Shown here piece by piece: positions 28,940-46,205 of a stretch of DNA of 64,000 nt. The first letter of the stretch is position 1. Every line of letters starts with the position of its first letter. Origin of the DNA: Serinicoccus profundi (GTDB lineage: Bacteria > Actinomycetota > Actinomycetes > Actinomycetales > Dermatophilaceae). The notes below the pieces were generated by a model, which was not told the DNA's origin, did no database searches, and saw nothing but the letters and a program-made list of their open reading frames with translations. The stretch lies in NCBI RefSeq assembly GCF_008001015.1, contig NZ_CP042862.1, positions 186,001 to 250,000 on the forward strand, read 5' to 3'. Both the position numbers and the translations under genes were made by a program.

Positions 28940-28950
28940 CGTCAGTCCAC

Positions 28951-28989: not shown

Positions 28990-29033
28990 TGCATGCCCGT
29001 CCCGCCCGAGGGCCCGAGACCGAGACGGAGCGT

Positions 29034-30113
29034 ATGAGCGTTCGCATCGACCCCGACGGCGTCCTGGCCATGTCTGCGGCCACGCTGGCCGCGGCGCAGA
29101 CCGCGGGCGAGGTCGCCGAGGACGTCCAGCGTGCCGTGGAGCGGGTGGACCACCTCGTCGGTCGGACGCCCCACGTGCGATCCGCGGTGCGGTCGGTCGG
29201 GGAGACCCTCACCGCGGCGGCGGGGCTGGCCTACGACCACGCCACCCACTACGTCGACGACGTGCGACCGCTGCGCGAGCTGGCGGAGGCGGGCTACTGG
29301 CTGCCCGACCTCAGCGCGCTGGGGTGGCAGGGCGAGGAGTCGGTCCTCGGCAACGTCGAGCGCATCTCCCGGTCGGACGAGTTCGGTGCCTTCGTGCTCG
29401 GCACCGGGGAGTCGCTGCTGGAGCGCTACCGCACCTGGCGTCTGCACGTGCCGCGCCGGGGTCCGTCGGCAGGACGGGCCCTGGGGGAGATCTCCGAGCT
29501 GATCACCTTCGCCGACGACGTGGAGGTGCGTCCGGGGCGCGTCGTCGTGCAGGGGCGACCGTGGACGACCTCGCCCAGCGGGCTGCTGGTGCCCGAGCCG
29601 GTCGAGCGTGGACGGCTGAGCCAGGGGCGGATCCAGGGGTCGGCGGCCCGCAGGGGCACGCTCATCGACGACGCGACGTATGCCCCCTGGCGACGCCTCG
29701 TGCCCGACCCCACGATCGGTCGGCCGCCGGCGTGGGCGAGGCATGGCGGACGCGGCCTGATCGTCGTGGGCTCGGCGCTCTCGCTCTACGACGCGGGCGC
29801 CTCGCAGTGGGAGCACGACCAGCGCCACCACCCCGAGTACTCCGACGCCCAGCGCGTGGCCTCCACGGGCTGGAGCGTCGCGACCGAGGGTGGCGGCGCC
29901 GTGGCCGGCGGGATCGCCGGCGGCAAGGTCGGGGCCGGGATCGGGGCAGCCGTCGGGTCGGTCGTGCCGGGCCTGGGCACGGGGGTCGGTGCCGTGGTCG
30001 GTGGTGTTGTCGGGGGCGCGGTCGGCGCCTTCGTGGGGTCGAAGGCGGGCAAGGCGTTGGGCACCGGCCTCCGGGAGGGTGCCGAGGCGGTCTGGGACTC
30101 GGTCTTCGGATGA
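29034..30113 (+). CDS. Candidate type VII substrate with glycine-zipper C-terminus
   Basis: 359 residues. The N-terminal 110 residues are alpha-helical and resemble a long WXG100/LXG-like secretion domain (MSVRIDPDGVLAMSAATLAAAQ). A middle domain (about 160-240) is unrecognised. The C-terminal 80 residues are a run of GxxxG glycine zippers (AGGIAGGKVGAGIGAAVGS and onward), a pattern found in membrane-inserting effectors and in phage or colicin-like pore domains. It sits directly after the WXG100 gene. Inferred role: exported membrane-active protein; it could instead be a structural or chaperone-type component. Confidence 0.7.
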   Translation: MSVRIDPDGVLAMSAATLAAAQTAGEVAEDVQRAVERVDHLVGRTPHVRSAVRSVGETLTAAAGLAYDHATHYVDDVRPLRELAEAGYWLPDLSALGWQGEESVLGNVERISRSDEFGAFVLGTGESLLERYRTWRLHVPRRGPSAGRALGEISELITFADDVEVRPGRVVVQGRPWTTSPSGLLVPEPVERGRLSQGRIQGSAARRGTLIDDATYAPWRRLVPDPTIGRPPAWARHGGRGLIVVGSALSLYDAGASQWEHDQRHHPEYSDAQRVASTGWSVATEGGGAVAGGIAGGKVGAGIGAAVGSVVPGLGTGVGAVVGGVVGGAVGAFVGSKAGKALGTGLREGAEAVWDSVFG

Positions 30114-30119
30114 GGCCGG

Positions 30120-31496: not shown

Positions 31497-31843
31497 CCGA
31501 CGGCGAGGTGCTCCCCACCCTGGCCTGGGGCGTCGCCTGCCTGGCCTTCGTCGGGTGGGGGGTCGCGGCATACCTCGGCCGCTGGTCGTTCCTGCGGGAG
31601 CGGATGCTCGCCGACCCGGAGGGGCAACGGCATGCCGGTGCCCTGTGGCTCGGGCTGCTCGGGGTGCCCGTGCTGGCGCTGGTGGCGCTGCCGGGGGAGG
31701 GCTTCGGTGCGGGTCGGGTGCTGGCGCTGGTGGTCCTGGGACTGCTGCTGGGTGCCCTGTGCGTGCTGGTGCTCGGTCGGCCGCGAGGCGCGGCAGGGCG
31801 GCTCACGCCCGGCTGGCTCCGTCGGGCGCGGGGGTGTCGCTGA
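31493..31843 (+). CDS. Three-helix membrane protein
   Basis: 116 residues with three membrane helices (about 7-27, 50-67, 74-95) and a basic C-terminus. It is translationally coupled to the upstream gene. Its position after a glycine-zipper protein fits a membrane immunity protein or a small secretion accessory protein; both are inferences from context. Confidence 0.65.
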   Translation: MTDGEVLPTLAWGVACLAFVGWGVAAYLGRWSFLRERMLADPEGQRHAGALWLGLLGVPVLALVALPGEGFGAGRVLALVVLGLLLGALCVLVLGRPRGAAGRLTPGWLRRARGCR

Positions 31844-31846
31844 GGC

Positions 31847-32179
31847 CTACTGCCCGGCCTGCTCGAGCTCGAGCCGGTCGGCCTCGTCGTCGAGCTCCTC
31901 GGCGCGGGTCTCGCATCGTCCGGCGTAGTCGACGACGTCCTCGGCCGCGGTGCGGAGCCGGCCGCGGGCTTGCGTGACCTGGTCGTAGAACTCGGTGGCG
32001 GCGCTGCCCCACCACACCCCGTCACGCGCGTGGGGGTAGTGGGTGAGCACGCCGGACGTGTCGTCGTCGAGCAGCGGTGCCTTGGTCCGCATCGTCCGGG
32101 CGACGTCCCGCAGGGTCTCTGCGCGGTCGCGGAGCTCGGACGGCGTAGGCATACGATCCAGTCTCGCACGACCGACCAT
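31847..32179 (-). CDS. WXG100-like helical protein
   Basis: 110 residues, almost wholly helical, with a central WWG turn (VWWGSAATEFYDQ) that fits the WXG pattern and heptad-rich Glu/Arg/Leu flanks. The second Met (ATG at 32152, MPTPSELRD) is an alternative start. It converges on the membrane-protein gene with three bases between the stops. Probably a second, divergent WXG100 superfamily member of the same locus. Confidence 0.65.
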   Translation of the reverse strand: MVGRARLDRMPTPSELRDRAETLRDVARTMRTKAPLLDDDTSGVLTHYPHARDGVWWGSAATEFYDQVTQARGRLRTAAEDVVDYAGRCETRAEELDDEADRLELEQAGQ

Positions 32180-32234
32180 CGCTCTTTCTGCGTGCCTCTG
32201 ACAGATTCGCTAGAGAACCGCATACAGTGCCATC

Positions 32235-33444
32235 GTGGATCCGATCCGTAACCCCTATGCCCCCGGCGCCGGTCAGCGCCCACCTGAGCTCGCCGGTCGC
32301 GACGAGCAGCTGGACCGCTTCCGCGTCGTGCTGGAGCGCATCCAGCGCGGCCGCCCCGAGCGCTCGATGGTGCTCACCGGGCTGCGCGGCGTCGGCAAGA
32401 CGGTGCTGCTCAACGCGCTGCGAGGTGCGGCGGTGCGCTCGCGGTGGGGGACCGGCAAGTATGAGGCGCGTCCGGAGCAGGGGATGCGTCGCCCGATGGC
32501 GGCGGCGCTGCACGTGGCGGTGCGCGAGCTGGGGCACCCGCAGGGCGATGAGGTCGACCACGTGCTGGGCGTCATCAAGGCGTTCGCGCAGAAGGACCAG
32601 CCTGGTGCCAAGCTGCGCGACCGGTGGAACCCCGGGATCGACGCGCCGGCGGTGACCGGCCGTGCCGACTCCGGCGACATCGAGATCGACCTGGTCGAGC
32701 TCCTCTCCGACGTCGGAGGGCTCGCGGCGGACGTCGGCAAGGGCGTCGCCGTCTTCATCGACGAGATGCAGGACCTGCAGGCCGACGACGTGTCGGCGAT
32801 CTGCGCGGCCTGCCACGAGCTGAGCCCAGTCGGCCCTGCCGGTGATCGTCGTCGGGGCCGGGCTCCCGCACCTGCCGGCGGTGCTGTCGGCGAGCAAGTC
32901 CTACTCCGAGCGGCTCTTCCGCTACAACCGGATCGACCGCCTCTCACGCGAGGAGGCGGAGCGGGCCCTGCAGCTGCCCGCGGAGGACGAGGACGCGGCC
33001 TGGTCACCCGAGGCGCTGGCGGCGATGTATGCCGCGACCGGCGGCTACCCCTACTTCATCCAGGCCTACGGCAAGGAGGTGTGGGACCTCGCGCCGGAGT
33101 CGCCGATCACCGACGAGGACGTGCGGGTCGCCGGGCCGGCGGCGGAGGCCGAGCTGGCGGTCGGCTTCTTCGGCAGCCGCTACGAGCGGGCGACGCCGGG
33201 GGAGCGGGAGTACCTCCGGGCCATGGCCGACCTCGCGGCCGAGCGGGTCGAGGCCGGCGAGGAGATCGACGAGACCGAGTCGGTGCCGACCGCGGAGATC
33301 GCCACCCACCTGGACCGCAAGCCGCAGTCGCTGTCCCCGGCGCGCGACGCGCTGCTCAAGAAGGGCCTCATCTACTCCGGCGAGCGGGGCCGGATCGCCT
33401 TCACGGTCCCGCACTTCGGGAGGTATCTCCGCCAGCACACGTGA
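32235..33444 (+). pseudogene. AAA/ORC-like ATPase, single-base frameshift
   Basis: P-loop ATPase of the AAA_16/ORC-like type, about 402 residues if repaired. The first frame from GTG 32235 has Walker A GLRGVGKTVLL and Walker B VAVFIDEMQDL. After CHELS the frame is lost; removing one C from CCC at 32824-32826 restores QSALPVIVVGAGLPHL, and the rest reads to 33444 (sensor region, LFRYNRIDRLS, and a C-terminal winged helix, DALLKKGLIYSGERGRIAF). The sequence therefore has one extra base. Substrate and role are unknown. Confidence 0.8.
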
Positions 33445-33578
33445 GGCGAGGGCTGACGCCCCTGCACGGGCACGGAGGTCCGCTGGACAGCAGGGCGCCG
33501 TGCAGTGGAGAGGGTGCTTTCTCGGCTGGTGGAACGAGCGGGTCCACGATCGCGTCCGAGGGATCGAGGAGGGTCGTC

Positions 33579-34265
33579 ATGTGGAGCTGTAGCAGAGGAC
33601 TGCGTGTTGGCCTCGCGGCGAGTCTTGGCCCCCTCGTGATCACCATCTCCGCTCCGGGGGCCGCGGCCACGTCGTGCGCGCCGCATCCGGATGGATCGCC
33701 GGAGGCCATCGCCGCCGAGCAGGAGGTGCTCGCCGTTGAACAGCCGTTCCGCGAGCGATATGACGGGGCGGTCCTGGGCACCGTCGTGCGGACACGCACC
33801 CAAGATGACTCGAACCGTCCGGACTACGGGCGCACCATAGTGGTGATGGACGTCCTGGGCGCTCTCGGTCCGCGCCTGCCGGAGCAGGTAGACATCATCG
33901 AGCCAGATCCCGGGTGGATGAACGGTTTCGGCTTGCAAGCCGGCCAGCACTATTTCGTGCCCTATGTCATCGACGGGGGCGACCTCAAGTCCTTCGTGTG
34001 TGACCCCATCAGCGTCGTGGATCCGAGCACGGTCACAGATCTCGTCGCAGTAGCTGACGAGCATCCTTGGCCGGACGACCAGCTCAAGACCATCCCACCC
34101 GAAGCGGTTTCCCACGGAGACGACGCATCGGCCACGGTGCAGGACGCCGCGCAGGGATCACGGTGGCCCGTCCCGGCGGTGGCTGTCGCGGGCCTTGTGA
34201 CGCTGGCGGTCGGTGTAGGCCTGGCGAGGATCGCTCTCAGGAGGTCCGCCTCGTCTCAGCACTGA
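33579..34265 (+). CDS. Exported membrane-anchored protein, NTR/TIMP-like fold possible
   Basis: 228 residues: signal peptide (about 1-31, GAAA/TSC), extracellular part to about 195, and a C-terminal helix with an RRSASSQH tail. The exported part has VLGTVVRT, LGPRLPEQVDII and LQAGQHYFVPYVI between two cysteines, a layout that recalls bacterial NTR/TIMP-like OB folds (inference). GAGGAGGGTCGTC precedes the ATG. GC content and codon choice begin to drop here relative to upstream genes. Confidence 0.7.
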   Translation: MWSCSRGLRVGLAASLGPLVITISAPGAAATSCAPHPDGSPEAIAAEQEVLAVEQPFRERYDGAVLGTVVRTRTQDDSNRPDYGRTIVVMDVLGALGPRLPEQVDIIEPDPGWMNGFGLQAGQHYFVPYVIDGGDLKSFVCDPISVVDPSTVTDLVAVADEHPWPDDQLKTIPPEAVSHGDDASATVQDAAQGSRWPVPAVAVAGLVTLAVGVGLARIALRRSASSQH

Positions 34266-34320
34266 GGCGCGGCAGCGGCCGCCGTCGTCGCGGGGGCTCA
34301 CGCAGAGCGGCATCAGAAGC

Positions 34321-34701
34321 ATGTGCACAGTCGCCCTGAGTCATGATGTCGCGATGGACGTCAACGAACTGGTGGGCACCTTCGTCGTCGAGGTGGGTGT
34401 CCGGCAGGCGTGGCCTTTCGTCGGCTTCTGCGATCACCGCGTGACGTCGAGCAGGGAGACGCGCCTCTATCTGGACGCCACCTGGTCGATCGGTGGCGAG
34501 CCGGAAAGAGGCGTGGACGAGACACAGCAGTGGTTGACCGCGGCCGATGATCTCGACGGACTCACCGTTTCGGATGCCACGGTAGTGAGCGGGGGCGCAC
34601 TGCGCCTGGAGTTTGTCGGCGGCGTCGTGCTGAGCGTCTCCACCACCTCGACGTTGAAGTTCTCGGAGGCGCGGTGGTGGTTCTCACCCTGGCATCACTA
34701 G
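34321..34701 (+). CDS. Small hypothetical protein, DUF6188-like
   Basis: 126 residues (or 115 from the ATG at 34354, MDVNELVG). The beta-rich sequence VRLYLDATW... LRLEFVGGVVLSV resembles DUF6188-type small proteins, many of which appear in toxin-immunity neighbourhoods. No signal peptide. Family call is tentative. Confidence 0.55.
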   Translation: MCTVALSHDVAMDVNELVGTFVVEVGVRQAWPFVGFCDHRVTSSRETRLYLDATWSIGGEPERGVDETQQWLTAADDLDGLTVSDATVVSGGALRLEFVGGVVLSVSTTSTLKFSEARWWFSPWHH

Positions 34702-34783
34702 GTCGGGGGTGGCCAGGACCGTCGCTCTGACACTGAGCTCCTGTCGCACGGCAGCTCGGTGAGTTCTGAGTCAGGATGGCGGT

Positions 34784-35338
34784 ATGGGCACCCGCATCGA
34801 GAAGTTCCTCTCCCACCTGGATGGGCTGAGCGGCGGCGTCGAGCCGCAGTTCTGGCCCGTCGAGGCCACATCACCTGGCCATCATGGTGTGACCGCCATC
34901 GGATACCAGGACCTGCCAGACGAAGGTCTGCTCCTCGGTGTCACGTACGGACTCTCGCTGGCCCGTCAGGAGGCGTGGCGTCTGGGTCGGCCGGAGCTGA
35001 GCATCAGCGTGAGATCTGACGATCCGGCTTGGGCTCTCGCCATTGCGCACCTCGCTGAGCAGCTGCGCCATGACTGCCCGTTCAGCTACGGCAACACCAT
35101 CAACTTCGGCGAGCCGATCGCGGCTGGGTCATCGCTCGACGGCTTCGTCGTGTTCGCCCCGCTGGTCTTCGGTCCGGGCGCCGCCCGGGTGGACGTTGGC
35201 GACGACCTGCCGGTCACCATCGTCGGGATGTACCCCACCTACGCGGCTGAGAGGCAGTTCATCGCCGAGAAGGGCCTCGAGGCGTTCTGGGCGCTGGACT
35301 GGGATCCCTACGATGTGACACGCCCGCCAGTGGTCTAG
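34784..35338 (+). CDS. Suppressor-of-fused (SUFU) domain protein
   Basis: 184-residue SUFU-fold protein. The conserved core is LPDEGLLLGVTYGLSLA, ELSISVRSDDPAW, the NTINFGEPIA segment and FVVFAPLVFGP. Bacterial SUFU domains are frequent immunity proteins in polymorphic-toxin loci; here no cognate toxin is visible nearby. It stands alone in the accessory region, with a weak start context. Confidence 0.8.
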   Translation: MGTRIEKFLSHLDGLSGGVEPQFWPVEATSPGHHGVTAIGYQDLPDEGLLLGVTYGLSLARQEAWRLGRPELSISVRSDDPAWALAIAHLAEQLRHDCPFSYGNTINFGEPIAAGSSLDGFVVFAPLVFGPGAARVDVGDDLPVTIVGMYPTYAAERQFIAEKGLEAFWALDWDPYDVTRPPVV

Positions 35339-35490
35339 TGCGCCGCAGTGACGGCTGGGTCAGGGCCGTGAGCCGCTCGCTTCGCGAATGCAGCGACCAA
35401 TCCTCCTTGAGGCGGGGTCCCCAGTAGCGCCAGTCGGCAGATGCGGGTGATGAGCGGCGAACCTTCGAGGTCGACGAGCAGATCGCTCAC

Positions 35491-35733
35491 GTGTTCAAGC
35501 ATCCGCACCTGGGGATGGACGACGTGATGGACGCGTGGAGCAGCGACCCGCTGTTCTACGTGGCAAAGCCGCCCGCTCATTGGGTGATGTTCGCGGAAGT
35601 CAGTGGGCGAGTACTCATCGTGCCGCTGGCTCCATCTCGATCGGGCGATCCGAGCAAGTGCCGACCGATCGGCTGCTACGAGGCGTCTTCGGGCCTCGCC
35701 GCTACGTACCGAAGGGACCGTGATGAGCACTGA
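35491..35733 (+). CDS. BrnT-like toxin
   Basis: 80 residues from GTG 35491. The sequence shows the small-toxin pattern: FKHPHLGMDDVMDAW near the N-terminus, a beta core VMFAEVSGRVLIVPLAP and the terminal RPIGCYEASSGLAATYRR, which resembles BrnT-type RNase toxins. The open frame extends upstream (FEVDEQIAHV) but without a start codon, so the N-terminus may be incomplete. It overlaps the ribbon-helix-helix gene by 11 bases, the classic toxin-first order of brnTA. Confidence 0.6.
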   Translation: MFKHPHLGMDDVMDAWSSDPLFYVAKPPAHWVMFAEVSGRVLIVPLAPSRSGDPSKCRPIGCYEASSGLAATYRRDRDEH

Positions 35734-35965
35734 CGACAGCCGGCCGATGACGCCGGAGCAGGAGTACGACTTCTACGCCGACCCGCGCAACCAGGAGCCC
35801 CAGGGGCCTGCGCGTCGACGCAAGCGTCCACTGAGCGCACCCGTACCGGTGCGCTTCCCGGCCGAGCTGCTCGAGGAAGTCAAGCGCGCGGCGGAAGCTG
35901 ACGATCGTTCAGTCTCGGCCTGGATCCGCCGAGCCGTCGAGCACGAGCTGTCCCGCCCCGCCTGA
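35723..35965 (+). CDS. Ribbon-helix-helix antitoxin
   Basis: 80 residues. A disordered acidic N-terminus (MSTDDSRPMTPEQEYDFYAD) and a basic linker lead to a C-terminal RHH/CopG-like fold: VPVRFPAELLEEVKRAAEADDRS followed by SAWIRRAVEHEL. GAAGGGACC lies before the ATG. It most likely represses its own operon and neutralises the overlapping BrnT-like toxin. Confidence 0.75.
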   Translation: MSTDDSRPMTPEQEYDFYADPRNQEPQGPARRRKRPLSAPVPVRFPAELLEEVKRAAEADDRSVSAWIRRAVEHELSRPA

Positions 35966-36067
35966 CCCAATAAGCCCAGCACGCGGCCAGCGGCATGACA
36001 GTAAGCATCTCGCTCACCTTCGGGATGTTGGCAATGGGCACGGAGCTCCGCGACGCAGTCGGCTGAC

Positions 36068-36850
36068 ATGGAGGCCTCGGCGGCGCTACGGTCACTTATG
36101 CGAGAACGGCGCTGGCCATGGGTCGGGACATCGGTCCTGCTCCTAGCGGCCGCCGTCGCCGCCGGCTGGTCGACCTACCTGCACTGGCAACCCTGTCGTG
36201 GCGCTCTTCTCTCCGGCAGCGTGGTCCGCGCCTACAAGTACGCTCCGGACTTCTCCGATGCGTGCCTGCGCCGGATGGACGGCAGCCTCCCTTTCCCGTT
36301 CCTACCCGAGGCCGCGCAGCGGACGCCGTGGGCCTCGGAGCTCGGAGTCGTGGCCATGAGCCTGGCCGCGGCGGCGTGGCTCCTTTTGGTGGTGGGGACG
36401 AGCTGGTCGCTGAGGACCAAGTTGGTGGCAGCCCTGCCAGGACTGACAACCCTGGCCCTGGCCGCCGCCTTGGCGCTCGCCACCGTCGACCCCGGCCTCA
36501 GCGCCGACGACGACGTTTCGATGTGGATACTGCTGACGCCTGAGGTGGCTGCGTTGGCGGCGATAGCCGCGATCCTGGCTTGGCAACCGGAGCTCGATGA
36601 ACGCACCCTTGCGCGCGTGCTGGTCGTGGCCTGGGGAACCACGGCCTTCGGTGCGGTTCACCTGGTCGTCGAATATGCGTTCATGCTCGCTTTCAGCGAC
36701 GCCAACTGGGACACGCCACCGCTCACCGGGTCCGTCACCGTTGCAACGCTCGTCGTCGCAGCCGTCCTGACGCTGAGGATGGCCCTCCACCCCTCGCCCG
36801 TGCCGGGCAGCACGAATCACCCATCTCCGGCTGTCCACCCGTACTCCTGA
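36068..36850 (+). CDS. Polytopic membrane protein, hypothetical
   Basis: 260 residues with about six membrane helices (the first at about 18-36, others between 90 and 245) and an extracytosolic loop containing two cysteines (QPCRGALL, DACLRRMDG). The ATG at 36098 (MRERRWPW) is an alternative start. No family recognised. Pro-rich C-terminus. Confidence 0.65.
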   Translation: MEASAALRSLMRERRWPWVGTSVLLLAAAVAAGWSTYLHWQPCRGALLSGSVVRAYKYAPDFSDACLRRMDGSLPFPFLPEAAQRTPWASELGVVAMSLAAAAWLLLVVGTSWSLRTKLVAALPGLTTLALAAALALATVDPGLSADDDVSMWILLTPEVAALAAIAAILAWQPELDERTLARVLVVAWGTTAFGAVHLVVEYAFMLAFSDANWDTPPLTGSVTVATLVVAAVLTLRMALHPSPVPGSTNHPSPAVHPYS

Positions 36851-37070
36851 GCCTGGTCGCAACGCTCCTCAGGTCCCACCTGCGGCGCAGTCCGACGAGC
36901 GTAGCCGTCCTCCACGCGGCAGGAGGGACGCTGCACGACCGAGTAACCCTCACAGATTGTGCAGGCGGCGTCGATTCGATCGAGGCAGCTGGCGCAGAAT
37001 CGGGCCGCTACGACAGTGCAACTAATGGAACGCCCCCGGGGGGACTCCGAGGGTGATTCCGACTGCCTGG

Positions 37071-37343
37071 TCAGCCCGCTTGGGAGGGCCGTCTGAGGCG
37101 CTCTACCCGCTCTACCCGCTCGCGGGCGACGTCGTATGCCTCGTCGAGGCCGTGACGGAGCAGGGCGATGAGGTCGGGCACCTCGTCGGCTGCGAGCCGG
37201 AAGGTGCTGACGCAGACGTTGTCGCGCCAGAGTGAGAGGACGACGACCTGCCGCTCCTGGTGCCAGGTCGCGCGAAGCAGGCGGCCATCCCCCCGGAGGT
37301 CGGGGAAGACCGTCCCGGCGCTAGGCGTGCGCTGCAGAGCCAT
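37071..37343 (-). CDS. Small hypothetical protein
   Basis: 90 residues of a compact alpha/beta kind: beta strands (RATWHQERQVVVLSLW, VCVSTFRLA), then a helix (VPDLIALLRHGLDEAYDVARERV). Soluble and without a signal peptide. The pattern recurs as single-domain hypotheticals in high-GC actinobacteria. No function is assigned. Confidence 0.6.
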   Translation of the reverse strand: MALQRTPSAGTVFPDLRGDGRLLRATWHQERQVVVLSLWRDNVCVSTFRLAADEVPDLIALLRHGLDEAYDVARERVERVERLRRPSQAG

Positions 37344-37674
37344 GTGTCACTATGACCCCGCCCAGGAGAATCCACAAGGGCCGTTCCTGCCCTGCCTCGG
37401 CTCGCAGGACGGCTCGAGCTGCCCGACCTGCCCGAGGGCATCCAGCGATGATGGTCACTGACACGCCTGCTCGCTCGGCGGCAGTTGCGGACGTGGCGCT
37501 TCTCGTCACCTGGCGCAGGCGGTGCCACACTTGGGCATGCGCACGCAGAGGCTCCACGGACGGATGCGCTGAGCATCGGGGGCTGGCCAATTTGGATCCG
37601 AGCCAGCTGACGGACAACGGTGCTAACGCGGGGCCAAGGTGCCGCATACTGGTCGGCCGCTTCACGGCCTCGAC
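37344..37674. other. Non-coding stretch before defence island
   Basis: 331 bases between the small hypothetical gene and the end of the NTPase gene. No frame shows coding character. Only a short GGCCG/CGGCC stem near 37660 was seen, possibly a weak terminator for the island. No att site or tRNA end was recognised. Confidence 0.4.
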
Positions 37675-40650
37675 TCAGCCAAGCAAGCTCAGAGCACGTT
37701 GCTCCAGTGCCTTGTGGAGGCTGGTAGCCTGCACACCGTATTGCCGCTCGAGGTCACGCACCATCCGGGGGTTACCAAGTGCCTGGGCTGCAACCGCTTC
37801 CCCGAGTTCGCCCAGTGCAACAAACCCCTCGTGGCCAATATCTCGCGCGCTCTCCGTGACGGCCCGAAACGTCTCCCGGGCCTCGTGAGCGTGATCCAGA
37901 GCAAGTTCAGCAACCCCTCGGCGGCAAAGACCCTCCAGGATCAGGTTCAGGTCTCCCGTGTTGAACCCCATCGAGGCAAGACGGTCGAAGCCACTATGGA
38001 GGAGGGACCCAAGCTCCGTTCGCAGGGGGTCGGCCACTCCCTCCGTAGAAGAGATGGCCGCGTTCAAGCCGGCCAGCGCGATCCAGGACATATTGCCTGT
38101 TCTGAAGGCTAGATCCGCAGCCTGCTTGAAGTATTTGTGGCCCCAGAAGAAGGCACCTCGACGAATGCTCATGGCCCCCATCCCCGTAAGGGCGAGATAC
38201 ACTTTATCGGAGCGCTCACGGAGTCCCTCTGTAAGCAGCAGGTCCCACTCACTGGGTTCAAGCGATATCGTGCCCCTTACACCAAGGCGACCCCGCACGT
38301 GCAGGACTTCGTCGCGTACCACCCTGTCCTCAACGACGCAGTGACTCAAGTCTGGGAGCCGAGCAGCTGCTCGCTCGACCTCGCCGATGTCGATATAGGC
38401 CTTAGCCAGTGCAGACAAATCTGCGGGTTTCGTCTGCACGGGGCCAACCGTCGAGTCTAGTAGGTCCACAGCGCTCTGTGAGGTACGGTCGGCAAGCAAG
38501 GCGAGAGCCTGCCGGTAGCCCGACCCGAGAGCGGACTGCAGCGCCCGCAACCCGCCAGGCCTAAGTGCGATGTTGTGCAGCATGGAAACGTCCGGCTTGT
38601 CGGCCTCCTGCCAGGCCTCTCGTACGGCCCTGCCGGTGAGGATCCGGTCTGGGTGGCTAAACCATCTGAGAACGGCAGCGCGAGTCTCGGCCTGGAGTCC
38701 ACCCACACGAAGTAGTGACCGCGCGTCGTGACGGTATGCCGTCCTCAGTTGGAGATGGCCCTGAATCTCGACGATGAGGCTCGCCAAGCGCCACCGCAGT
38801 AGTTCAAGAGATGCCTGGTCAAAGGCAGGGATGAGTTGCCGGACAATACCAAGGACTTCTGCTTCCGTATAACCGGTCTCAGACCCGCTTAAAAGAGTCA
38901 GGACAGCAGTTGCATCGGCCGCAGCTTCTGGCCTGACATCGGACGTGACTCGGGCGAGAACGTCACCCAGGAGTTGCGCGGTCGAAGTCGCTCGCAGCAA
39001 GGTGCTGAGCCGGTGGGCCAATCGTGTGTGGGAGCCAACTTTATGCAGCTCGTCCAGCAAGAGTCCGAGGAAGGCTGGGTCCTTGGTCTGCGGGTGATTG
39101 ACTATGGCCTCTACCTCCTTGGCCAGCAGCGTCCGGCCCGCGCTCGCCAGGCTGGACTCCACGAGGGTGCGGCGGTCCTCCGTGCCGAGCGGCGGCACCC
39201 GAACGGTCGCTGTGTCGTACGCGTAGGTAGTTGGCTGGTCGGCCGCAGTCACCACCATGGGAATGTACTTGATCGTCGTCGCAGGGCTCTGTTGCGGGAG
39301 CCACCCCAGTCCCATCATCATGAGGCGTTCCAGCTCGCTAGGCGCAAAGATTCGCTCAATGCCGTCTATCCCCAGGACGACCCGCTGTTGTCGCTGGATC
39401 TCTCGCGTCCGGAAGGCCGCTAGCACAGCCAGCTCGCCATCAGCCTGTGGGAGATCGATCGACTGTCCCGTTCGCAGCGAAAGTTCAGCCATGATGCTTC
39501 GAAGCAAGCCGGCCCAGGTCTGAGACTCTTCCGTCAAGCCCACGAACCGCAGGATGACGATGTCATCAGGATGGGTCTCCCGCCAACGGCTACCCCACCT
39601 CGCCATCAGCGTTGAGCGACCGCTTCCGGGTGGTCCAAGAAGGGCGACGACTTTCTCAACGTCGTGCCAATGCTGGGTCTCAAGCAGAACTTCTTCGTTT
39701 AAAAGAGGACGGCTAATGAGCAACTGCTCTTGGACCACATGCGCAGAAATCTCACGCAGGAGCCTGTGGTCGGTGCCTGCTGGCACCTCTCTATCGAGTC
39801 GGTCGAGCAGGTGTTCGTGGACTAGAGCAGCCAAACTCTCTGCCGATTCGACTTCGGTGACTACGTCAGCCGATTGCTCGAGTTCTCGCCGCAAACTCGA
39901 CAAACTCGCGGCATCCCCGTCACTGGCTGGGTCACGGTCTAGGGAGAATACTTTGACCACCTGGCCCTTTAGGCCTATAGCATGTCGCAATTCGAGATGT
40001 GTAATCGAAAGATCCCGGCCTTCACCTACCCACTCAGGAAGCCGCCCTGAGTTTTTCCCGTCAAGAGCCAATACGGTGCCATAACGACCTCCAAGGATGC
40101 CAATCGTGTTGGGGTGGCACCGCTCGACAGCGGTCAGACAGATGTCGACCACCTCGCCGGCATTTTGTTGCAACTCCGTGATGCCCCAGCGAAGGTCGAT
40201 GGGAGCCCACAGGGCACCCCGACGCTCGCACTCAACTGCGAGTCGAGGGAACACTTCCTGAGCAAGGATGTCGCGTTCCTTGAGCATATCGTTGAAGGTG
40301 GAGGAAATGAACACGCGGAATGGCTTGACCCGCCCGGCAAGCGCCAACGAGCGCTGCTCCGCCTCTGGGCCGAGGTCAATACCCACTCCATACCCTGCCT
40401 TCAGCGACGTGACGTAGGACGCAAGAAGGGCTCGAGTGCGGTAGTACCGCATGGCCTCTACTGGGTAGGCCAGGAATGGAGCAGCTAGGTAGACGAGAAC
40501 GAAGCCAGCCATGGCTATCACAAGTCCTGCGACGGTCTCGAAAAGCCAAACGCCGACCGTTATTGCGATGGTGAGCGCGGCATACCTCAGGACCTCTAGC
40601 CTGGTCCAGCGGCGTGTTGCCGACTCGTTTTCAGATGGCTGCTGGAACAC
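37675..40650 (-). CDS. Membrane-anchored DUF4062 STAND NTPase
   Basis: 991-residue NLR-like protein. Residues about 20-62 form two adjoining membrane helices. About 108-200 is DUF4062 (FRVFISSTFNDMLKERDIL, then DLRWGITE and GILGGRYG), a SLOG/TIR-related module found in conflict proteins. The NTPase P-loop at about 338-349 reads GPPGSGRST, with Arg replacing the usual Lys, followed by VVLGIDGIERIF as Walker B. The C-terminal 350 residues are helical TPR-like repeats, probably the sensor. GTG start at 40650 with GCGGAG seven bases before. It lies 174 bases after the SLOG gene and may have its own weak promoter. Lower GC than flanks. Confidence 0.8.
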   Translation of the reverse strand: MFQQPSENESATRRWTRLEVLRYAALTIAITVGVWLFETVAGLVIAMAGFVLVYLAAPFLAYPVEAMRYYRTRALLASYVTSLKAGYGVGIDLGPEAEQRSLALAGRVKPFRVFISSTFNDMLKERDILAQEVFPRLAVECERRGALWAPIDLRWGITELQQNAGEVVDICLTAVERCHPNTIGILGGRYGTVLALDGKNSGRLPEWVGEGRDLSITHLELRHAIGLKGQVVKVFSLDRDPASDGDAASLSSLRRELEQSADVVTEVESAESLAALVHEHLLDRLDREVPAGTDHRLLREISAHVVQEQLLISRPLLNEEVLLETQHWHDVEKVVALLGPPGSGRSTLMARWGSRWRETHPDDIVILRFVGLTEESQTWAGLLRSIMAELSLRTGQSIDLPQADGELAVLAAFRTREIQRQQRVVLGIDGIERIFAPSELERLMMMGLGWLPQQSPATTIKYIPMVVTAADQPTTYAYDTATVRVPPLGTEDRRTLVESSLASAGRTLLAKEVEAIVNHPQTKDPAFLGLLLDELHKVGSHTRLAHRLSTLLRATSTAQLLGDVLARVTSDVRPEAAADATAVLTLLSGSETGYTEAEVLGIVRQLIPAFDQASLELLRWRLASLIVEIQGHLQLRTAYRHDARSLLRVGGLQAETRAAVLRWFSHPDRILTGRAVREAWQEADKPDVSMLHNIALRPGGLRALQSALGSGYRQALALLADRTSQSAVDLLDSTVGPVQTKPADLSALAKAYIDIGEVERAAARLPDLSHCVVEDRVVRDEVLHVRGRLGVRGTISLEPSEWDLLLTEGLRERSDKVYLALTGMGAMSIRRGAFFWGHKYFKQAADLAFRTGNMSWIALAGLNAAISSTEGVADPLRTELGSLLHSGFDRLASMGFNTGDLNLILEGLCRRGVAELALDHAHEARETFRAVTESARDIGHEGFVALGELGEAVAAQALGNPRMVRDLERQYGVQATSLHKALEQRALSLLG

Positions 40651-40824
40651 GACTACTCCGCTTCACCGGATATACTCATCTTTGCTTGTGGGTGCGTGTG
40701 TGAGGACTGTCGGGTGAGGCAGATACAGCCAGGGCGGATTTGCGTAACTTGAGAATGCGCTTGGTGTGGCACGGCCCCCCATCCAAGGCTCACCACCACC
40801 TCCGAAGCTTCGGCAGTTGTAATG

Positions 40825-41295
40825 TCAACGGGTCAATCCTGCTGGCCAAACCACCTCGACCGGCTTGCCCACCTCACGTGCGTACTCCACCACGTCGGCC
40901 GTACCGCCTTTGCCTTGCGCGGGGAGACCGTCCCATACTGCGACCAACACGTCGCACAGGTCCACCACGCGCCTCCCCGCCGCCAGATACGCATCCTCGC
41001 TCGGCTGGCGATAGTTGAGTTGTTCGACTTTGGTCGCGGCCGCGAGCAATTGTTGGAAGCGATGTCTGTCCTCATCAGTCTGCATGGATGACTCGTAGTT
41101 CATGCTGGGTAGGACCACATGCAACTCTCCACCTAGGCTGAGCACGGCTTGGGCAAAGCGCTGGTCCGCCCCAACGGCAAGACTTGAAACGCCCGTGACG
41201 GATTGGCCGCTAAGCAGATCACCAAGGCGTATGGATAGAAGCGTCCAGGTCTCAGCGGGCGCCTTTTGATGTCCCGTGATCCCGTAAACGATCAA
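40825..41295 (-). CDS. SLOG-domain protein
   Basis: 156-residue nucleotide-binding Rossmann-like protein of the SLOG superfamily (MIVYGITGHQ, GVSSLAVGADQRFAQ, GGELHVVLPS, YLAAGRRVVDLCDVLVAVWDG, GKGGTADVV). The TTG at 41295 is preferred: it overlaps the caspase stop as TTTTGA and has GAAGGGGGT upstream; an ATG at 41352 would intrude 61 bases into the protease gene. In Thoeris ThsA the SLOG domain binds the TIR-made cyclic ADP-ribose signal, so this protein is a candidate signal receptor, sponge or processing enzyme. Confidence 0.8.
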   Translation of the reverse strand: MIVYGITGHQKAPAETWTLLSIRLGDLLSGQSVTGVSSLAVGADQRFAQAVLSLGGELHVVLPSMNYESSMQTDEDRHRFQQLLAAATKVEQLNYRQPSEDAYLAAGRRVVDLCDVLVAVWDGLPAQGKGGTADVVEYAREVGKPVEVVWPAGLTR

Positions 41296-42272
41296 AAGCG
41301 ACCCCCTTCGGCTAAATGGCGGTAGTGCCGACCCAGTGGCGTCAGGCGACACCCTTCGCTCTGCATAGCCGCGAAGTACATGTGCTCAGCCCCTACAGGT
41401 TCGACCAATTTCGACGAGGCACACCTTTGCAGTTGTTTGAAGACCGTTTCATTGTCCAGGTGCGGAGGCAGTCCGGACTGACTCTTGTCTGGCTCGTAAC
41501 TCGGGTCCAGTGGAAAGATGTCTTCAGGACCAGGAAACCACTCTGACAGTTTTCGTAGCGTAGCTAATGGGACAGATGGATCGCACCGCCGGATGTCCTG
41601 AAGCCGGTCTACGTTGGCTTTGAACATGGGTCGTTGGTCCCATGCCCCAAACGCCTCTGAAAGGTACGCGTAGAGGCCGGCAACAGTTACGTGACCCAAC
41701 ACGTCGGCCGCTCCGCCCTCCAAGGCTCCCTCGAGGTAGGCGGAGAACTGTCCCCGCCCATCCAGTGTCTCCGCTGAGGTTTGGTCTGCCCGGCTGGCGG
41801 TCAGGAGGGAGACGCCCTGGCGCAGAACAGCAGCAGGACTCATTGCAGCAGGAAGGCTGCCCGCGGCACCTGCGAAGCAGCAGTCCAGGACCACAGTGAC
41901 TTCTTGAGCGCAGCCGTTAACCAGTTCCAAGACTTCACTGAAGCGAACACCCGGCGTGCCGTTCGTTCCGTCAGAAGTGACCAGGGTCACATCCCCATTG
42001 TCGCGGATTGGCGCTCCATGGCCTGCGAAGTACAGAAGCGACATGTCTACGCCTGGGCCAAACAACGTGTCGAGCGCATCGAGAAGCGCGTCTCGGCCCA
42101 CGAGCTCCGCGCCACCAACGGATGCGGTTAGAGTCCGTACGTCAAAGTTTGGAGAGTCGTCCTCGTTTCGGGCCAGCAACGGTGTTAGGGCATGGGCATC
42201 GTTGACGCACCCGCCAAGGTTCTTGAATCTCAAGTAGTTATCTATACCAACAACGAGGGCGCGGCGCAGCAC
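41292..42272 (-). CDS. Caspase-like (peptidase C14) protease, Thoeris-associated
   Basis: 326 residues from GTG 42272, one base after the TIR stop. Caspase/metacaspase fold in residues 1-220: RALVVGIDNY at the N-terminus, catalytic His85 in LLYFAGHGAP and Cys132 in VVLDCCFAGAAG. The C-terminal 100 residues are an unrecognised alpha-rich region that may bind a ligand. An upstream ATG (42383) would overlap the TIR gene by 110 bases and is less likely. Placed directly after a ThsB-like TIR, it matches the reported TIR-caspase type of Thoeris, where a TIR-derived nucleotide activates the protease to shut down infected cells. Confidence 0.88.
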   Translation of the reverse strand: MLRRALVVGIDNYLRFKNLGGCVNDAHALTPLLARNEDDSPNFDVRTLTASVGGAELVGRDALLDALDTLFGPGVDMSLLYFAGHGAPIRDNGDVTLVTSDGTNGTPGVRFSEVLELVNGCAQEVTVVLDCCFAGAAGSLPAAMSPAAVLRQGVSLLTASRADQTSAETLDGRGQFSAYLEGALEGGAADVLGHVTVAGLYAYLSEAFGAWDQRPMFKANVDRLQDIRRCDPSVPLATLRKLSEWFPGPEDIFPLDPSYEPDKSQSGLPPHLDNETVFKQLQRCASSKLVEPVGAEHMYFAAMQSEGCRLTPLGRHYRHLAEGGRF

Positions 42273-42273
42273 G

Positions 42274-42651
42274 TCACAGTCCGTCGATGAAATTGCCGAC
42301 GTTCTCCCAAGTCCATTCTTTACAGGGGGCTGAACCCATCGCAGTAGGCTTGGTCCTGTAGCCCTTCTCGATCCAGATGCCAAGCAGTGGCTTGCCCTCC
42401 TCGCGGGCGCACTCGATTTCCCACAGCTCCCCGGTTGCCTGCGGCGTGCTGCTGCTAATGAGTGCGATCACGCCATTGGAGCGGCGGATGCGAGTGCGAA
42501 CGCGCTCCTTCCACTCCTCATCGTAGGGCTTCTTGACGCTCATGTCGGTCCAGTCATAGGGCGTTGTGCCCAACTTTCGCTGCCCAACGAACAGGTCTCG
42601 AGTCCTCTCGTCCTCCTTAGCGAAGGCGATAAAGACAATCTTGTCAGCCAT
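42274..42651 (-). CDS. ThsB-like TIR-domain protein (Thoeris)
   Basis: 125 residues, a single TIR-like domain of the ThsB type: KIVFIAFAKEDERTRDLF, then TPYDWTDMSVKKPYDEEWKE and the helix RVRTRIRRSNGVIALIS. The WEIECA motif supplies candidate catalytic glutamates (78 and 80). AGGAGGGAACGACC precedes the ATG, a strong site. It would sense infection and make a cyclic ADP-ribose-type signal. First gene of the coupled TIR-caspase-SLOG set; no separate Sir2- or Macro-type effector is present. Confidence 0.88.
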   Translation of the reverse strand: MADKIVFIAFAKEDERTRDLFVGQRKLGTTPYDWTDMSVKKPYDEEWKERVRTRIRRSNGVIALISSSTPQATGELWEIECAREEGKPLLGIWIEKGYRTKPTAMGSAPCKEWTWENVGNFIDGL

Positions 42652-43033
42652 GGTCGTTCCCTCCTGCAGGTGATGATGACCCCTTGTATACCACTCCGTG
42701 CCGACGGGGTGGTCGATCTCATGAGAGGTTCGTCGAGCAAGCTGGTTCGGCCCGAGGGATCACCACGCCTCCGGACCTCGCCGTCAGCCTTCCGGCGACG
42801 AGAAACGAACGTTGCTTCGTCAGAGACCAACTTGCGGGTTCTGACCGGATGCTCAGGTGGCTCCAGAACCCCTAGAAACGTCTTCCACGGCGTGATGTGA
42901 GACGTCGGCCTACAACCCATATTTGGCGTGTCCGGCGGTCCGTCGCCGCGCCAGAGCAAGCATCCGGACATCGGCATGAGGGCGATGTCACGACCACGAC
43001 CGAAATGTAGTTGCCTGCTGGCAGGTGAGGACC
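42652..43033. other. Non-coding edge of defence island
   Basis: About 380 bases upstream of the TIR gene and before the phosphotransferase gene. It must contain the TIR promoter; a TATACAA element lies about 45 bases upstream of its start but no matching -35 box was seen. No coding frame, repeat or integrase-type signature was recognised. Confidence 0.4.
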
Positions 43034-43975
43034 ATGATGGGGATGGTGGATCCAGCCTTCCCTGCACCGCGCCCGGCGGCGCCTGACGCCGGCCTGGTCA
43101 CCCGCCTGCTGCGGGAGCAGGTCGCCGGGCTGGCACACCTCCCCGTGGCCGCGAGTGACACCTCCGGGAGCAGCAACTGGGTCTTCCGCCTGGGGGACAC
43201 GATGGCTGTGCGGATGCCGCGCACGGACGGGTATGCCGCGGACCTGCGCAACGAGCTGCGGTGGCTGCCGCATGTGGCATGCGGGTTGCCGGTCCCGGTG
43301 CCGACCGTCGTGGCGGTCGGGCAGCCCACGCCATTCTTTCCTCGCCCTTGGAGCGTCGTCTCGTGGGTGGAGGGGGATCTCCCGCTCGAGCTCGACGAGG
43401 CGCAGCAGCGACAGCTCGCCCTGACCCTCGGAGCGGCTCTCCAGAGCCTCCACGCGATCGAGACCGACGGAGCCCCGGCCGGTGCGGAGCACTGGGGCTA
43501 TCGCTGCGGCGAGCCGGTCACCGGGACGATCGACGGGTGGGCCGACCAGGCTGCGGCCGCGCTGGCAGACCTCTTCGATCCCGGAGCGGTGCGCGAGGCG
43601 TGGCGGCGCCTGCGGGAGGTCCCTGCCGCGACGCGACCACCCGGCCTGGTGCATACCGACGTCTCGTCGGAGAACGTCCTGACCAGCCCCGACGGTCGCC
43701 TGGCAGGGCTCATCGACTTCGGTGGCGCCGGAGTGGGCGACCCGTCCGTGGACCTCCTCTATGCCTGGAGCATGTTCGACCCCCCGGCGCGGGACCTCTT
43801 CCGCGCGTCCGCGGGGGCGGACGACGCGACCTGGTGTCGAGCGCGCGCCTGGGCCTTCGTCGGCCCGGGCCTGCTCACGCTGCACCACTACCGCACCTCC
43901 ATGCCCACCCGGACCGAGCGCCTCACCCGCATGGTCGAGGCTGTCGCCGGCGAGGTCGGGGTGCGGCTCCGGTGA
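43034..43975 (+). CDS. Aminoglycoside phosphotransferase-family kinase
   Basis: About 313 residues of the APH/protein-kinase-like fold. N-lobe SGSSNWVFRLGDTMAVRMPR supplies the nucleotide-binding loop and the Lys-equivalent. The C-lobe has the catalytic loop LVHTDVSSENVL and the metal-binding LAGLIDFGGAGVGDP. It phosphorylates a small hydroxyl-bearing molecule; the aminoglycoside name is only the family label. The GTG at 43025 is an alternative start. Confidence 0.85.
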   Translation: MMGMVDPAFPAPRPAAPDAGLVTRLLREQVAGLAHLPVAASDTSGSSNWVFRLGDTMAVRMPRTDGYAADLRNELRWLPHVACGLPVPVPTVVAVGQPTPFFPRPWSVVSWVEGDLPLELDEAQQRQLALTLGAALQSLHAIETDGAPAGAEHWGYRCGEPVTGTIDGWADQAAAALADLFDPGAVREAWRRLREVPAATRPPGLVHTDVSSENVLTSPDGRLAGLIDFGGAGVGDPSVDLLYAWSMFDPPARDLFRASAGADDATWCRARAWAFVGPGLLTLHHYRTSMPTRTERLTRMVEAVAGEVGVRLR

Positions 43976-44061
43976 GCCAGGGCTCGAGGTCGAGGCGCAC
44001 CCGGGAGTCCGCAGATGGCCGGGCATACCCCGACCCGTGTCGGGGCACCACACTGGTCGCC

Positions 44062-44680
44062 ATGACCAGGACCTCTGCTCGTCTCGAACGACGTGTGCGC
44101 CGGGACTTCGGCGCCGCCGCCGACGACCTCGTGCGTCTCCTTCAGGACGCGCCGTATGCGGAGCGGGTGCAGGCCGCCTCCGTGATCGGGGCGGGCGGTG
44201 ACGCCGAGCGGGTCCGGCAGGCGCTCCGCCTCGCCGACCTCGACTGGCGCGACGTCCTCATGAACACGCAGGCGACCGCCGTCGACCTCGCCACCTCGGG
44301 CTGGGAGGCGAGGCTGGACCTCGCCCTGGGTGAGGGTGCGCCGGTCCAGCTGTGGCGGCCGGTCGGGCCCGAGGAGCTGGGCCTCGTCGAGGAGAGCGGG
44401 TGGCGCGAGTGGCCGCCGCGCCCCCGCAGACCAGCCGAGGCTCATCACCGTGCTCCGGCGCGAGGATGCGCACGCCCTCGGGCAGCAGGGGAGCGGCCCG
44501 GACCCCGGCACGGGCTGGGTGACCCGGTGTGAGGTCGAGGCCGGGTTCATGAGCCGGTATGCCGTCACGCAGGTCGGCGGGCGGAGGATCCGTGGGTACC
44601 GGATCCCCGCCGTGGATCTGGCCGAGCTCAACGCCAACCTCGTCGGCCGGATCCAGCGCGTCGAGGCGGTGCGCGGGTGA
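44062..44680 (+). pseudogene. Hypothetical protein, single-base frameshift
   Basis: Two frames of one gene. Frame 1 runs from ATG 44062 (MTRTSARLERRVRRDFG) to WREWPPR. Deleting one C from the five-C run at 44421-44425 rejoins it to PADQPRLITVLRREDAHALG, which reads to 44680. The repaired protein is about 205 residues, with a helical N-terminus and a mixed C-terminus, and no known domain. The sequence appears to hold one extra base. Confidence 0.65.
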
Positions 44681-44766
44681 GGCGGGCCTGTCGGTCGCCT
44701 CTGGCACACTCGCCGGTGTCGCGCGGGCGTCATCGTCGAGAGGGCACGACCGAGGAAGGGAGGGGT

Positions 44767-45456
44767 ATGAAGATCCTGCTCACGTCGGGTGGTGTCACCA
44801 ACCCCAGCATCGAGAGGGCCCTCGTGGATCTCCTCGGCAAGCCCGTCGCCGAGTGCACCGCGCTGGCGATCCCCACCGCCGCCTACGGTCACCCGATGTG
44901 CGGCCCGGAGTCGGCCTGGCGCTTCGTCACCGGCGCATCCTCGGCGCCGATGTGCGGCCTCGGGTGGCGATCCGTCGGTCTGCTGGAGCTCACGGCGCTC
45001 CCCAGCGTGCCCCGTGAGCGCTGGGTGCCCTGGGTCGAGCAGGCCGACGTGCTCCTCGTGGACGGCGGGGACGCCACCTACCTCGCCCACTGGATGCGTG
45101 AGTCCGGCCTCGCCGACCTCCTGCCGGAGCTGTCAGACACGGTCTGGGTGGGGCTGAGCGCCGGCAGCATGGTGCTCACCCCGCGCATCGGCGAGCCCTT
45201 CGTCACCTGGCGGCCGGAGGGCTGGAGCGACGAGACGCTCGGCCTCGTCGACTTCTCGATCTATCCGCACGTCGGCATGAACCCCATGGAGGGCGCCGAC
45301 CGGTGGGCCGCGCCGCTGGGCGTGCCCGCCTACGCCCTGGACGACCAGACCGCGCTCCAGGTCGTCGACGGCGAGGTGACAGTGGTCTCCGAGGGTGTCT
45401 GGCGCCACCTGCCGGTCGTCGGCGTGGACGACCCCGGACCCGGGGCCGGGCCCTGA
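44767..45456 (+). CDS. Peptidase E (S51)-like protein
   Basis: 229 residues of the class-I glutamine-amidotransferase-like S51 fold. Nucleophile elbow GLSAGSM at about residue 135 with the catalytic Ser; DVLLVDGGDATYLAHWM is the preceding glycine-rich loop; SIYPHVGMN supplies the His. Dipeptidase E cleaves Asp-X dipeptides, but many actinobacterial homologues have unknown substrates. GAAGGGAGGGGT lies before the ATG. Followed closely by a kinase-like gene. Confidence 0.85.
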   Translation: MKILLTSGGVTNPSIERALVDLLGKPVAECTALAIPTAAYGHPMCGPESAWRFVTGASSAPMCGLGWRSVGLLELTALPSVPRERWVPWVEQADVLLVDGGDATYLAHWMRESGLADLLPELSDTVWVGLSAGSMVLTPRIGEPFVTWRPEGWSDETLGLVDFSIYPHVGMNPMEGADRWAAPLGVPAYALDDQTALQVVDGEVTVVSEGVWRHLPVVGVDDPGPGAGP

Positions 45457-45470
45457 GCGCGGACGAGGAG

Positions 45471-46205
45471 GTGCTGCACGGCGGCAACGCCTCCGGTGCG
45501 GTCGTGCGGGTCGGCGACACCGTGCGCAAGCCCTGGCAACCCTCCACCGCACGGGTGGTGGAGTTCATGGACGCCCTGCGCGAGGCCGGCATCGACGTGC
45601 CCCGCACCTACGGCGCCGACGAGCAAGGGCGCCTCGTCCTCGAGTTCGTCCCCGGGACGATGGCCATCGACCTCGCCCCGTTGCCGCTCGACACCCTGAC
45701 CCGGGTGGGTGCCCTCGTCCGGCGCATCCACGACGCCAGCGCCCGGCTCCCGGTGCCCGAGGATTGGCAGGCGGTGGTCTTCCCCGCCCCCTACACCGAG
45801 CTCCTGTGCCACCACGACCTCGCCACGTGGAACCTCGTCGTCGACGGCGACCGCCTCGTCTTCATCGACTGGGACGCCGCCGGCCCGAGCAGCCGCTCCT
45901 GGGACCTCGCCTACTCGGCCCTCACCTTCGCCCACCTCGTCCCGGGAGCGGAGGCGGAGGCCTGCGTCCGGAGGCTCACCGCCTTCGTCGACGGTTACGG
46001 CGCCGACCCGGACCTTCGCACCGCCCTCCCCGACCTCATGGTGCAGCGCGCGCAGGCGATGTGGGAGCTGCTGCACAGCTCGCACCTGGAGGGACGCGAA
46101 CCCTGGGGCACGATGTATGCCGACGGCCACGGCGACTACTGGAGCGCCACAACGGACTTCATCGCGCAGCATCGCCGGGCCTGGGTGGACGCGCTCACCC
46201 CCTGA
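45471..46205 (+). CDS. Phosphotransferase-family (APH/choline kinase-like) protein
   Basis: About 244 residues with kinase-fold motifs: GGNASGAVVRVGDTVRKPW (nucleotide loop and Lys-equivalent), LCHHDLATWNLVVDG (catalytic loop, HxDxxxxN) and LVFIDWDAAGPSS (metal-binding). The GTG at 45471 has no spaced Shine-Dalgarno, so an upstream start such as CTG 45453 that overlaps the peptidase stop is possible. Likely co-transcribed with the S51-like gene. Confidence 0.75.
   Translation: MLHGGNASGAVVRVGDTVRKPWQPSTARVVEFMDALREAGIDVPRTYGADEQGRLVLEFVPGTMAIDLAPLPLDTLTRVGALVRRIHDASARLPVPEDWQAVVFPAPYTELLCHHDLATWNLVVDGDRLVFIDWDAAGPSSRSWDLAYSALTFAHLVPGAEAEACVRRLTAFVDGYGADPDLRTALPDLMVQRAQAMWELLHSSHLEGREPWGTMYADGHGDYWSATTDFIAQHRRAWVDALTP

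Follow-up and report, generated by a model that had tools for sequence, protein, structure and literature searches.

A recurrent SLOG partner of the caspase-like protease in a type IV Thoeris-like cassette of Serinicoccus profundi

What does a SLOG-domain protein do in an operon that otherwise pairs a TIR protein with a caspase-like protease? The question is raised by three minus-strand genes in a 64,000-nucleotide stretch of the Serinicoccus profundi genome (contig NZ_CP042862.1, positions 186,001–250,000; the whole stretch is called the window), which encode a ThsB-type TIR protein, a caspase-like protease and a YpsA-like SLOG protein. The initial annotation placed three open reading frames here, with a gap of one base between the first two and a TTGA overlap between the last two, and the sequence bears this out in full. 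The partnership between the SLOG protein and the caspase is well supported by the comparisons set out below; on the best reading, the SLOG protein would bind a ligand and regulate the caspase as its partner. The features of the locus are as follows, in window coordinates.

42274–42651, minus strand: TIR gene (ThsB type), 125 amino acids, ATG start, likely catalytic residue Glu78
42659–42664, minus strand: Shine–Dalgarno-like GGAGGG, 7 nucleotides 5' of the TIR ATG (by eye)
42273, minus strand: single-base spacer between the TIR stop and the caspase GTG (from the sequence)
41292–42272, minus strand: caspase-like protease gene, 326 amino acids, GTG start, dyad His85/Cys132
From about residue 255 of the caspase: conserved C-terminal part, marked by alignment invariants
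41292–41295, minus strand: TTGA, the caspase stop (TGA) overlapping the SLOG start (from the sequence)
41302–41306, minus strand: GGGGG, Shine–Dalgarno-like, 6 nucleotides 5' of the SLOG TTG, within the caspase gene (by eye)
40825–41295, minus strand: YpsA-like SLOG gene, 156 amino acids, TTG start, motifs GHQ, GADQ, WDG and GxGGTxD
40838–42705: extent of DNA similarity (blastn) to the nearest relative, locus L055 of Ornithinimicrobium murale, which marks the cassette as a discrete unit

The three family assignments, first made from the letters alone, agree with Pfam (ThsB_TIR and Peptidase_C14), PADLOC and AlphaFold2 folds. The TIR protein scores 32.5 bits against ThsB_TIR (cut-off 21.2), and its profile also matches solved TIR and ThsB chains. 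Both Glu78 and Glu80 had been proposed as catalytic; Glu78 is invariant in all 15 aligned TIR proteins, whereas Glu80 is not conserved. The caspase scores 44.3 bits against Peptidase_C14 (cut-off 21.4) and has a PADLOC match to a caspase (1.7e-17). Its proposed dyad, His85 and Cys132, is invariant across 54 aligned caspases. The structure prediction suggested as a check of the fold returned a MALT1/caspase fold, the AlphaFold2 model (predicted local distance difference test, pLDDT, 94.2) having MALT1 and caspases as its top PDB matches. A search of the PDB with the caspase profile found metacaspases and MALT1, and no entry named type IV Thoeris.

No Pfam family above its cut-off was found for the SLOG protein. 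Its AlphaFold2 model (pLDDT 95.3) has a predicted SLOG fold and its sequence the GGT motif, which together place it in the SLOG superfamily. The best PDB match is YpsA (2nx2; template modelling (TM) score 0.76), followed by ShosA (8zva; 23% identity in the fold alignment); the matches further include DprA and LOG enzymes, several of the latter deposited with AMP. Close as it is to YpsA/DUF1273 in fold, the protein differs in being only 17% identical, in falling below the Pfam cut-offs and in belonging to a caspase operon. LOG enzymes carry the motif PGGxGTxxE. The SLOG alignment, read by eye, shows GxGGTxD in its stead, and a LOG phosphoribohydrolase identity was rejected. A type I ThsA was also considered and set aside: the 156-residue SLOG protein stands alone, without a SIR2 match.

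The system that the cassette most recalls, type IV Thoeris, is reportedly that of Rousset et al. (Science, 2025). Passages of PMC12847820 describe it as a TIR protein and a caspase-like protease, with N7-cyclic ADP-ribose (N7-cADPR) as the signal. Judged by such descriptions rather than by exemplar proteins, a match in architecture is supported, and it is for the architecture (TIR, caspase and their adjacency) that the resemblance claimed at the outset stands. The cassette encodes, in one operon and one base apart, a ThsB-type TIR protein with the invariant Glu78 and a caspase with a His/Cys dyad, the activities of both being predicted. Unlike type IV Thoeris, it has a separate SLOG gene overlapping the caspase gene. 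Type I Thoeris combines ThsB with a SIR2-SLOG ThsA, according to passages of PMC11204291; here too a ThsB-type TIR protein and a SLOG domain would share one pathway, but the SLOG protein is separate and YpsA-like, the effector is a protease and there is no SIR2. Passages of PMC7159879 place caspases, TIR and SLOG domains in other conflict systems as well. The literature searched, chiefly abstracts and passages with the founding type IV paper outside it, yielded no description of a TIR-caspase-SLOG operon, and the text of PMC13373217, passages of which mention type IV Thoeris, does not contain the word SLOG. That the arrangement is undescribed agrees with this literature and is not proven by it.

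Is the SLOG gene more than an oddity of one genome? A scan of genome contigs with a caspase alignment confirmed at least 578 relatives, of which the best 80 loci were kept; because the ranking follows similarity to the window, they are skewed to its kin and do not form an even sample. Two with a disrupted caspase (L068 and L096) were left out, and 78 intact caspases were counted. A TIR gene adjoins the caspase in 66 of these loci; 26 have one 3' of the caspase, and 20 of these 26 have a further TIR gene 5' of it. The listing of like loci that had been proposed places a SLOG gene within 700 bp of the caspase in 25 of the 78, and the pairing recurs in eight phyla, plasmid loci included. The SLOG gene, first described as an added piece, is thus a widespread one and not peculiar to this genome. 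In some loci it occupies another position: upstream of the TIR gene (L035, L126), convergent (L082, L144) or divergent (L063). An even sample of 394 genomes from Actinomycetes contained 17 that match the caspase profile at 1e-20, 11 of them over its full length. A SLOG gene adjoins the caspase in 9 of these 11 (8 of 10 once the genome of the window is set aside), counting G292, in which it runs off the contig end and was seen in the matching record L074. Another full-length caspase genome, G138, has TIR, caspase and an RyR-domain gene, and no SLOG. Searches of viral contigs returned 47 caspase loci, of which 20, at E values of at most 2e-48, were taken as family; a TIR gene is adjacent in all 20 (in one case in two pieces), and a SLOG gene lies within 700 bp in one.

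Among the loci collected, L033 (3620–5989), L076, L090 and L126 have a SLOG gene and an extra TIR gene beside TIR and caspase. In Janibacter hoylei (L068, 6004–6977) the caspase reading frame lies in pieces between TIR and SLOG, through decay or draft error. TIR-caspase pairs also occur on contigs titled as archaeal bins, of Methanoperedens and Methanomicrobiaceae (L124, L127).

The first tie between SLOG and caspase is the way their genes are joined. With duplicates excluded, as also from the distance correlations below, 25 joints have caspase and SLOG on the same strand, and in 22 of them a possible SLOG start shares the sequence NTGA with the caspase stop. By record title these belong to Actinomycetota, Chloroflexota, Planctomycetota, Armatimonadota, Cyanobacteriota, Bacteroidota, Bacillota (plasmid pBS72) and Pseudomonadota (an Agrobacterium plasmid). 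The SLOG profile begins within 3 nucleotides of the NTGA start codon in 17 of the 22; in the remaining five it begins 21–45 nucleotides later, and there the overlapping start is only possible. Joints of this type were found in none of 4 caspase-RyR and 2 of 24 caspase-TIR joints, which come from other lineages and are not a matched control.

Further ties come from a tree and from protein distances. A quick tree was made from 109 caspase rows, with L154, L160, L161 and the duplicates L045 and L047–L051 excluded; on it the SLOG label needs 7 changes, against a mean of 27.9 when shuffled; at least 4 of the 7 are forced by starred branches. A single fork of 38 rows (Shimodaira–Hasegawa-like approximate likelihood ratio test, SH-aLRT, 91) contains 30 of the 32 rows with SLOG; the two outside it are identical caspases from Methylorubrum. 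Protein distances compared over a common set of 20 loci give correlations of 0.68 between SLOG and caspase, 0.36 between TIR and caspase and 0.33 between SLOG and TIR; these values were reached by 0, 3 and 1 of 2000 permutations, respectively, which ignore shared ancestry among loci that are not independent. Removing two odd rows gives 0.74, 0.33 and 0.30, and the SLOG-caspase correlation over all 30 SLOG loci is 0.66.

The SLOG proteins of these loci also have a residue signature. Gln10 is present in all 31, and Glu100 in 29 of the 31, SLOG proteins from TIR/caspase loci and neither in 27 stand-alone relatives, in a comparison that excluded L074, L146 and duplicates and for which the two residues were chosen after inspecting the alignment. 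Finally, the SLOG gene keeps company with the caspase where the TIR gene does not: in 10 of the 25 SLOG-bearing loci the caspase has no adjacent TIR, although in one of them (L059) a convergent TIR gene lies 547 bp away. In a Frankia locus (L072, 4206–7902) a CATRA-N/C-EAD1 gene, checked in Pfam, lies upstream of caspase and SLOG, again without an adjacent TIR. Passages of PMC7159879 describe EACC1 caspases with CATRA/EAD1, which have a related caspase domain; unlike them, the caspase of the window scores 82.8 bits against the EACC1-associated NF047832, under the 140-bit NCBIfam cut-off, and has a TIR gene beside it instead. The presence of SLOG in the cassette is not accidental. That it is a passenger gene, caught by chance in an island, is hardly credible: its presence does depend on lineage, but recurrence in eight phyla, the shared joint, purifying selection (see below) and its place beside most full caspases in the actinomycete sample speak against chance.

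Several observations besides the shared ancestry noted above weigh against a dedicated partnership with the caspase, or against a regulatory role in it. No SLOG gene lies within 700 bp of 53 of the 78 intact caspases, and in the full-caspase actinomycete genome G360 (L234) no SLOG, RyR or TIR profile match was found within 6 kb. Even samples from other phyla point the same way: 6 of 398 Pseudomonadota genomes match at 1e-60, and with the chosen centre omitted none of the 5 has SLOG and all 5 have TIR; 5 of 335 Bacteroidota genomes match, and with the centre again omitted 1 of the 4 has SLOG and all 4 have TIR. Gly107, present in all 31 associated SLOG proteins, is also found in 15 of the 27 stand-alone ones. 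A Novosphingobium plasmid (L044, 2993–4465) has TIR, an 8xMP membrane protein and SLOG without a caspase, which points to the signal rather than to the caspase as what SLOG attends. The SLOG of BcThsA with 3'cADPR is a weak match of rank 29 in the PDB (TM 0.48). Caspase columns 298 and 320 are not retained where SLOG is present. Elsewhere in Pseudomonadota, longer proteins, of 575–665 amino acids, match the SLOG profile (L201–L211); of 11 scanned among the 12 non-centre ones, 6 give DUF4231/SLATT matches (2 above cut-off), 2 give TPR-S and guanylate cyclase matches, and 3 give none. Fusion of SLOG to predicted two-transmembrane (2TM) domains equally fits an activating sensor. Together with L044 and the caspase loci, these long proteins suggest, as far as sequence goes, that relatives of this SLOG are often associated with effectors or signalling enzymes.

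How, then, might the SLOG protein act on its partner? The balance is about even on whether the cassette is an anti-phage module like type IV Thoeris in which SLOG is an additional, regulatory subunit that tunes the caspase. In such a module the TIR protein would sense the phage and make an ADP-ribose-derived signal from NAD+; the signal would activate the caspase through its conserved C-terminal part, and the activated protease would cleave cell proteins and abort the infection. By analogy with type IV Thoeris, the identity of the signal, proteolysis and phage defence may be expected here too. The C-terminal part of the caspase is the likely receptor. SLOG would be translated in step with the caspase, act on it or with it and, as its modelled fold suggests, bind the TIR signal or a related ADP-ribose (ADPR) nucleotide, thereby setting the threshold of the protease.

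The sign of this effect we infer from what the caspases keep. Of 18 C-terminal columns that are at least 90% conserved in SLOG-less caspases, 16 keep their residue at a frequency of 80% or more in each of the two groups with SLOG, and SLOG therefore seems not to replace a receptor. Since most caspases lack SLOG and those with it keep these columns, SLOG is likelier to be a tuner than a switch. Restraint, by holding the caspase or absorbing the signal, is more likely than the role of a required receptor. A precedent for restraint is ShosA, a DprA-like, SLOG-fold antitoxin that counteracts a toxic partner, as passages of PMC12593503 describe it; the toxin there is a different one, and the same passages report that ShosA binds DNA.

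Two alternatives are each unlikely and survive about equally well. In one, the SLOG protein would be an activating receptor: once bound to the signal, it would turn on the caspase in trans, as the SLOG of ThsA does in cis for SIR2. The 3'cADPR-bound BcThsA among the PDB matches and the joining of related SLOGs to predicted 2TM domains in one protein lend this some colour; the many caspases without a nearby SLOG, and the retention of most conserved C-terminal residues in those that have one, argue against it. In the other, a free SLOG protein would leave the caspase alone and act on the TIR signal, as a sink or a degrading enzyme that stops the signal or sets its threshold. In its favour, passages of PMC9503650 predict a role for YpsA-like SLOGs in sensing or processing derivatives of ADPR. 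It also gains from a second kind of gene found in the same place, which encodes an RyR domain and directly follows a TIR-caspase pair or a caspase (locus coordinates):

L039: 5987–6268
L040: 6005–6283
L041: 5975–6262
L057: 3285–3842
L060: 7010–7300
L103: 6857–7243
L233: 3301–3792

An RyR gene lies within 200 bp of the caspase in 3 of the 78 loci, in one of them on the other strand. The caspase-then-RyR sets (L039 from Paenarthrobacter, L040, L041, the first set of L057, L060, L103 and G138) all lack SLOG. The Pfam RyR matches of three such sets are below cut-off, and an HxxW motif is seen by eye in all seven RyR profile matches. One locus of Mycobacterium sp. (L060, 5349–7300) has 8xMP, caspase and RyR genes in a row, without an adjacent TIR. 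According to passages of the preprint PMC13232231, phage RyR proteins degrade or sequester 2'/3'cADPR, and RyDEP is a phage RyR-domain glycosidase or sponge with H75/W78. The RyR genes following the caspase share the HxxW motif with RyDEP; unlike it, they are bacterial, lie in a putative defence operon and fall below the Pfam cut-off, and the SLOG of the window has another fold. Because phage RyR proteins handle 2'/3'cADPR, the caspase-then-RyR sets suggest by analogy that the position after the caspase can hold a signal-handling gene.

A SLOG sink would then be the host counterpart of phage sponges and RyR glycosidases, a parallel no more probable than the sink itself. Against a sink, the NTGA joint and co-divergence link SLOG to the caspase rather than to the TIR protein, and SLOG occurs where an adjacent TIR gene was not found. 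In L057, moreover, some 2 kb separate a set with RyR from one with SLOG; mutual exclusion therefore holds within a set, not within a locus. Another SLOG locus (L078) is in the same Rhodococcus record set. A regulatory partner of the caspase remains the preferred reading. A wider proposal, rather more tentative than that for this cassette, is that caspase effectors of TIR immunity carry dedicated regulators as a built-in antidote, a restraining SLOG here or an RyR signal destroyer or sink elsewhere. Much more doubtful is a second effector, a nucleosidase that would destroy the nucleotide pool: AMP-bound LOG enzymes are among the PDB matches, but the LOG motif is not seen in the SLOG alignment and the caspase link would require a separate reason.

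The cassette behaves as a discrete unit within a stretch that was probably acquired, as its base composition indicates: G+C is 0.585–0.628 between 37.5 and 43.0 kb, against 0.66–0.70 at 33.0–37.5 kb and 0.72–0.76 right of 43 kb and at 30–33 kb. When positions 34001–46000 were compared with L055 by blastn, only 40838–42705 aligned (77% over 1875 columns). Purifying selection seems to act on all three genes, the ratio of non-synonymous to synonymous substitution (dN/dS) against L055 being 0.057 for TIR, 0.059 for the caspase and 0.096 for SLOG at a dS of 1.1–1.65, near saturation. A search with flanking DNA in 24 relatives found no clean empty site, and island borders are not claimed. A sigma-70 promoter scan of 40500–43100 gave no match, no convincing terminal repeats were found in 36500–43500, and Rfam and tRNA scans of the window found nothing.

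The same low-G+C island holds a minus-strand gene for a 991-residue protein with DUF4062 and AAA_22/NACHT-like domains (37675–40650), 174 bp from the cassette. It was tried as a fourth member and rejected: a tblastn match at 1e-5 is absent in loci L031–L162, and the DNA match to L055 is confined to the cassette. It lies outside the cassette and is probably a second, separate defence gene; passages of PMC13174449 describe DUF4062 as a TIR-like NADase of the Swarozyc defence system. Further left, 28664–35332 may be a toxin/immunity region of type VII secretion: it holds large open reading frames and genes for a WXG100 protein, a SUFU-domain protein and an AAA ATPase. Three other genomes of the genus have sites 92–94% identical to some 534 bp at 35462–35999, and a short repeat at about 36876–36932 has many copies in the genus. 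On the right, a plus-strand APH-family phosphotransferase gene (43025–43972; Pfam APH) abuts the low-G+C stretch.

What sets the cassette apart from the architecture described for type IV Thoeris is the recurrent SLOG partner of the caspase. If this partner acts as proposed, it would explain how a protease pathway that destroys its own cell stays quiet without infection. Plasmid pBS72 of Bacillus subtilis carries an operon with SLOG (L031), which makes such regulation testable in a laboratory host. If SLOG and RyR answer one need, host regulation would use a protein family that phages use for evasion; and if dedicated regulators prove true of these effectors, bacterial caspase immunity would resemble toxin-antitoxin pairs.

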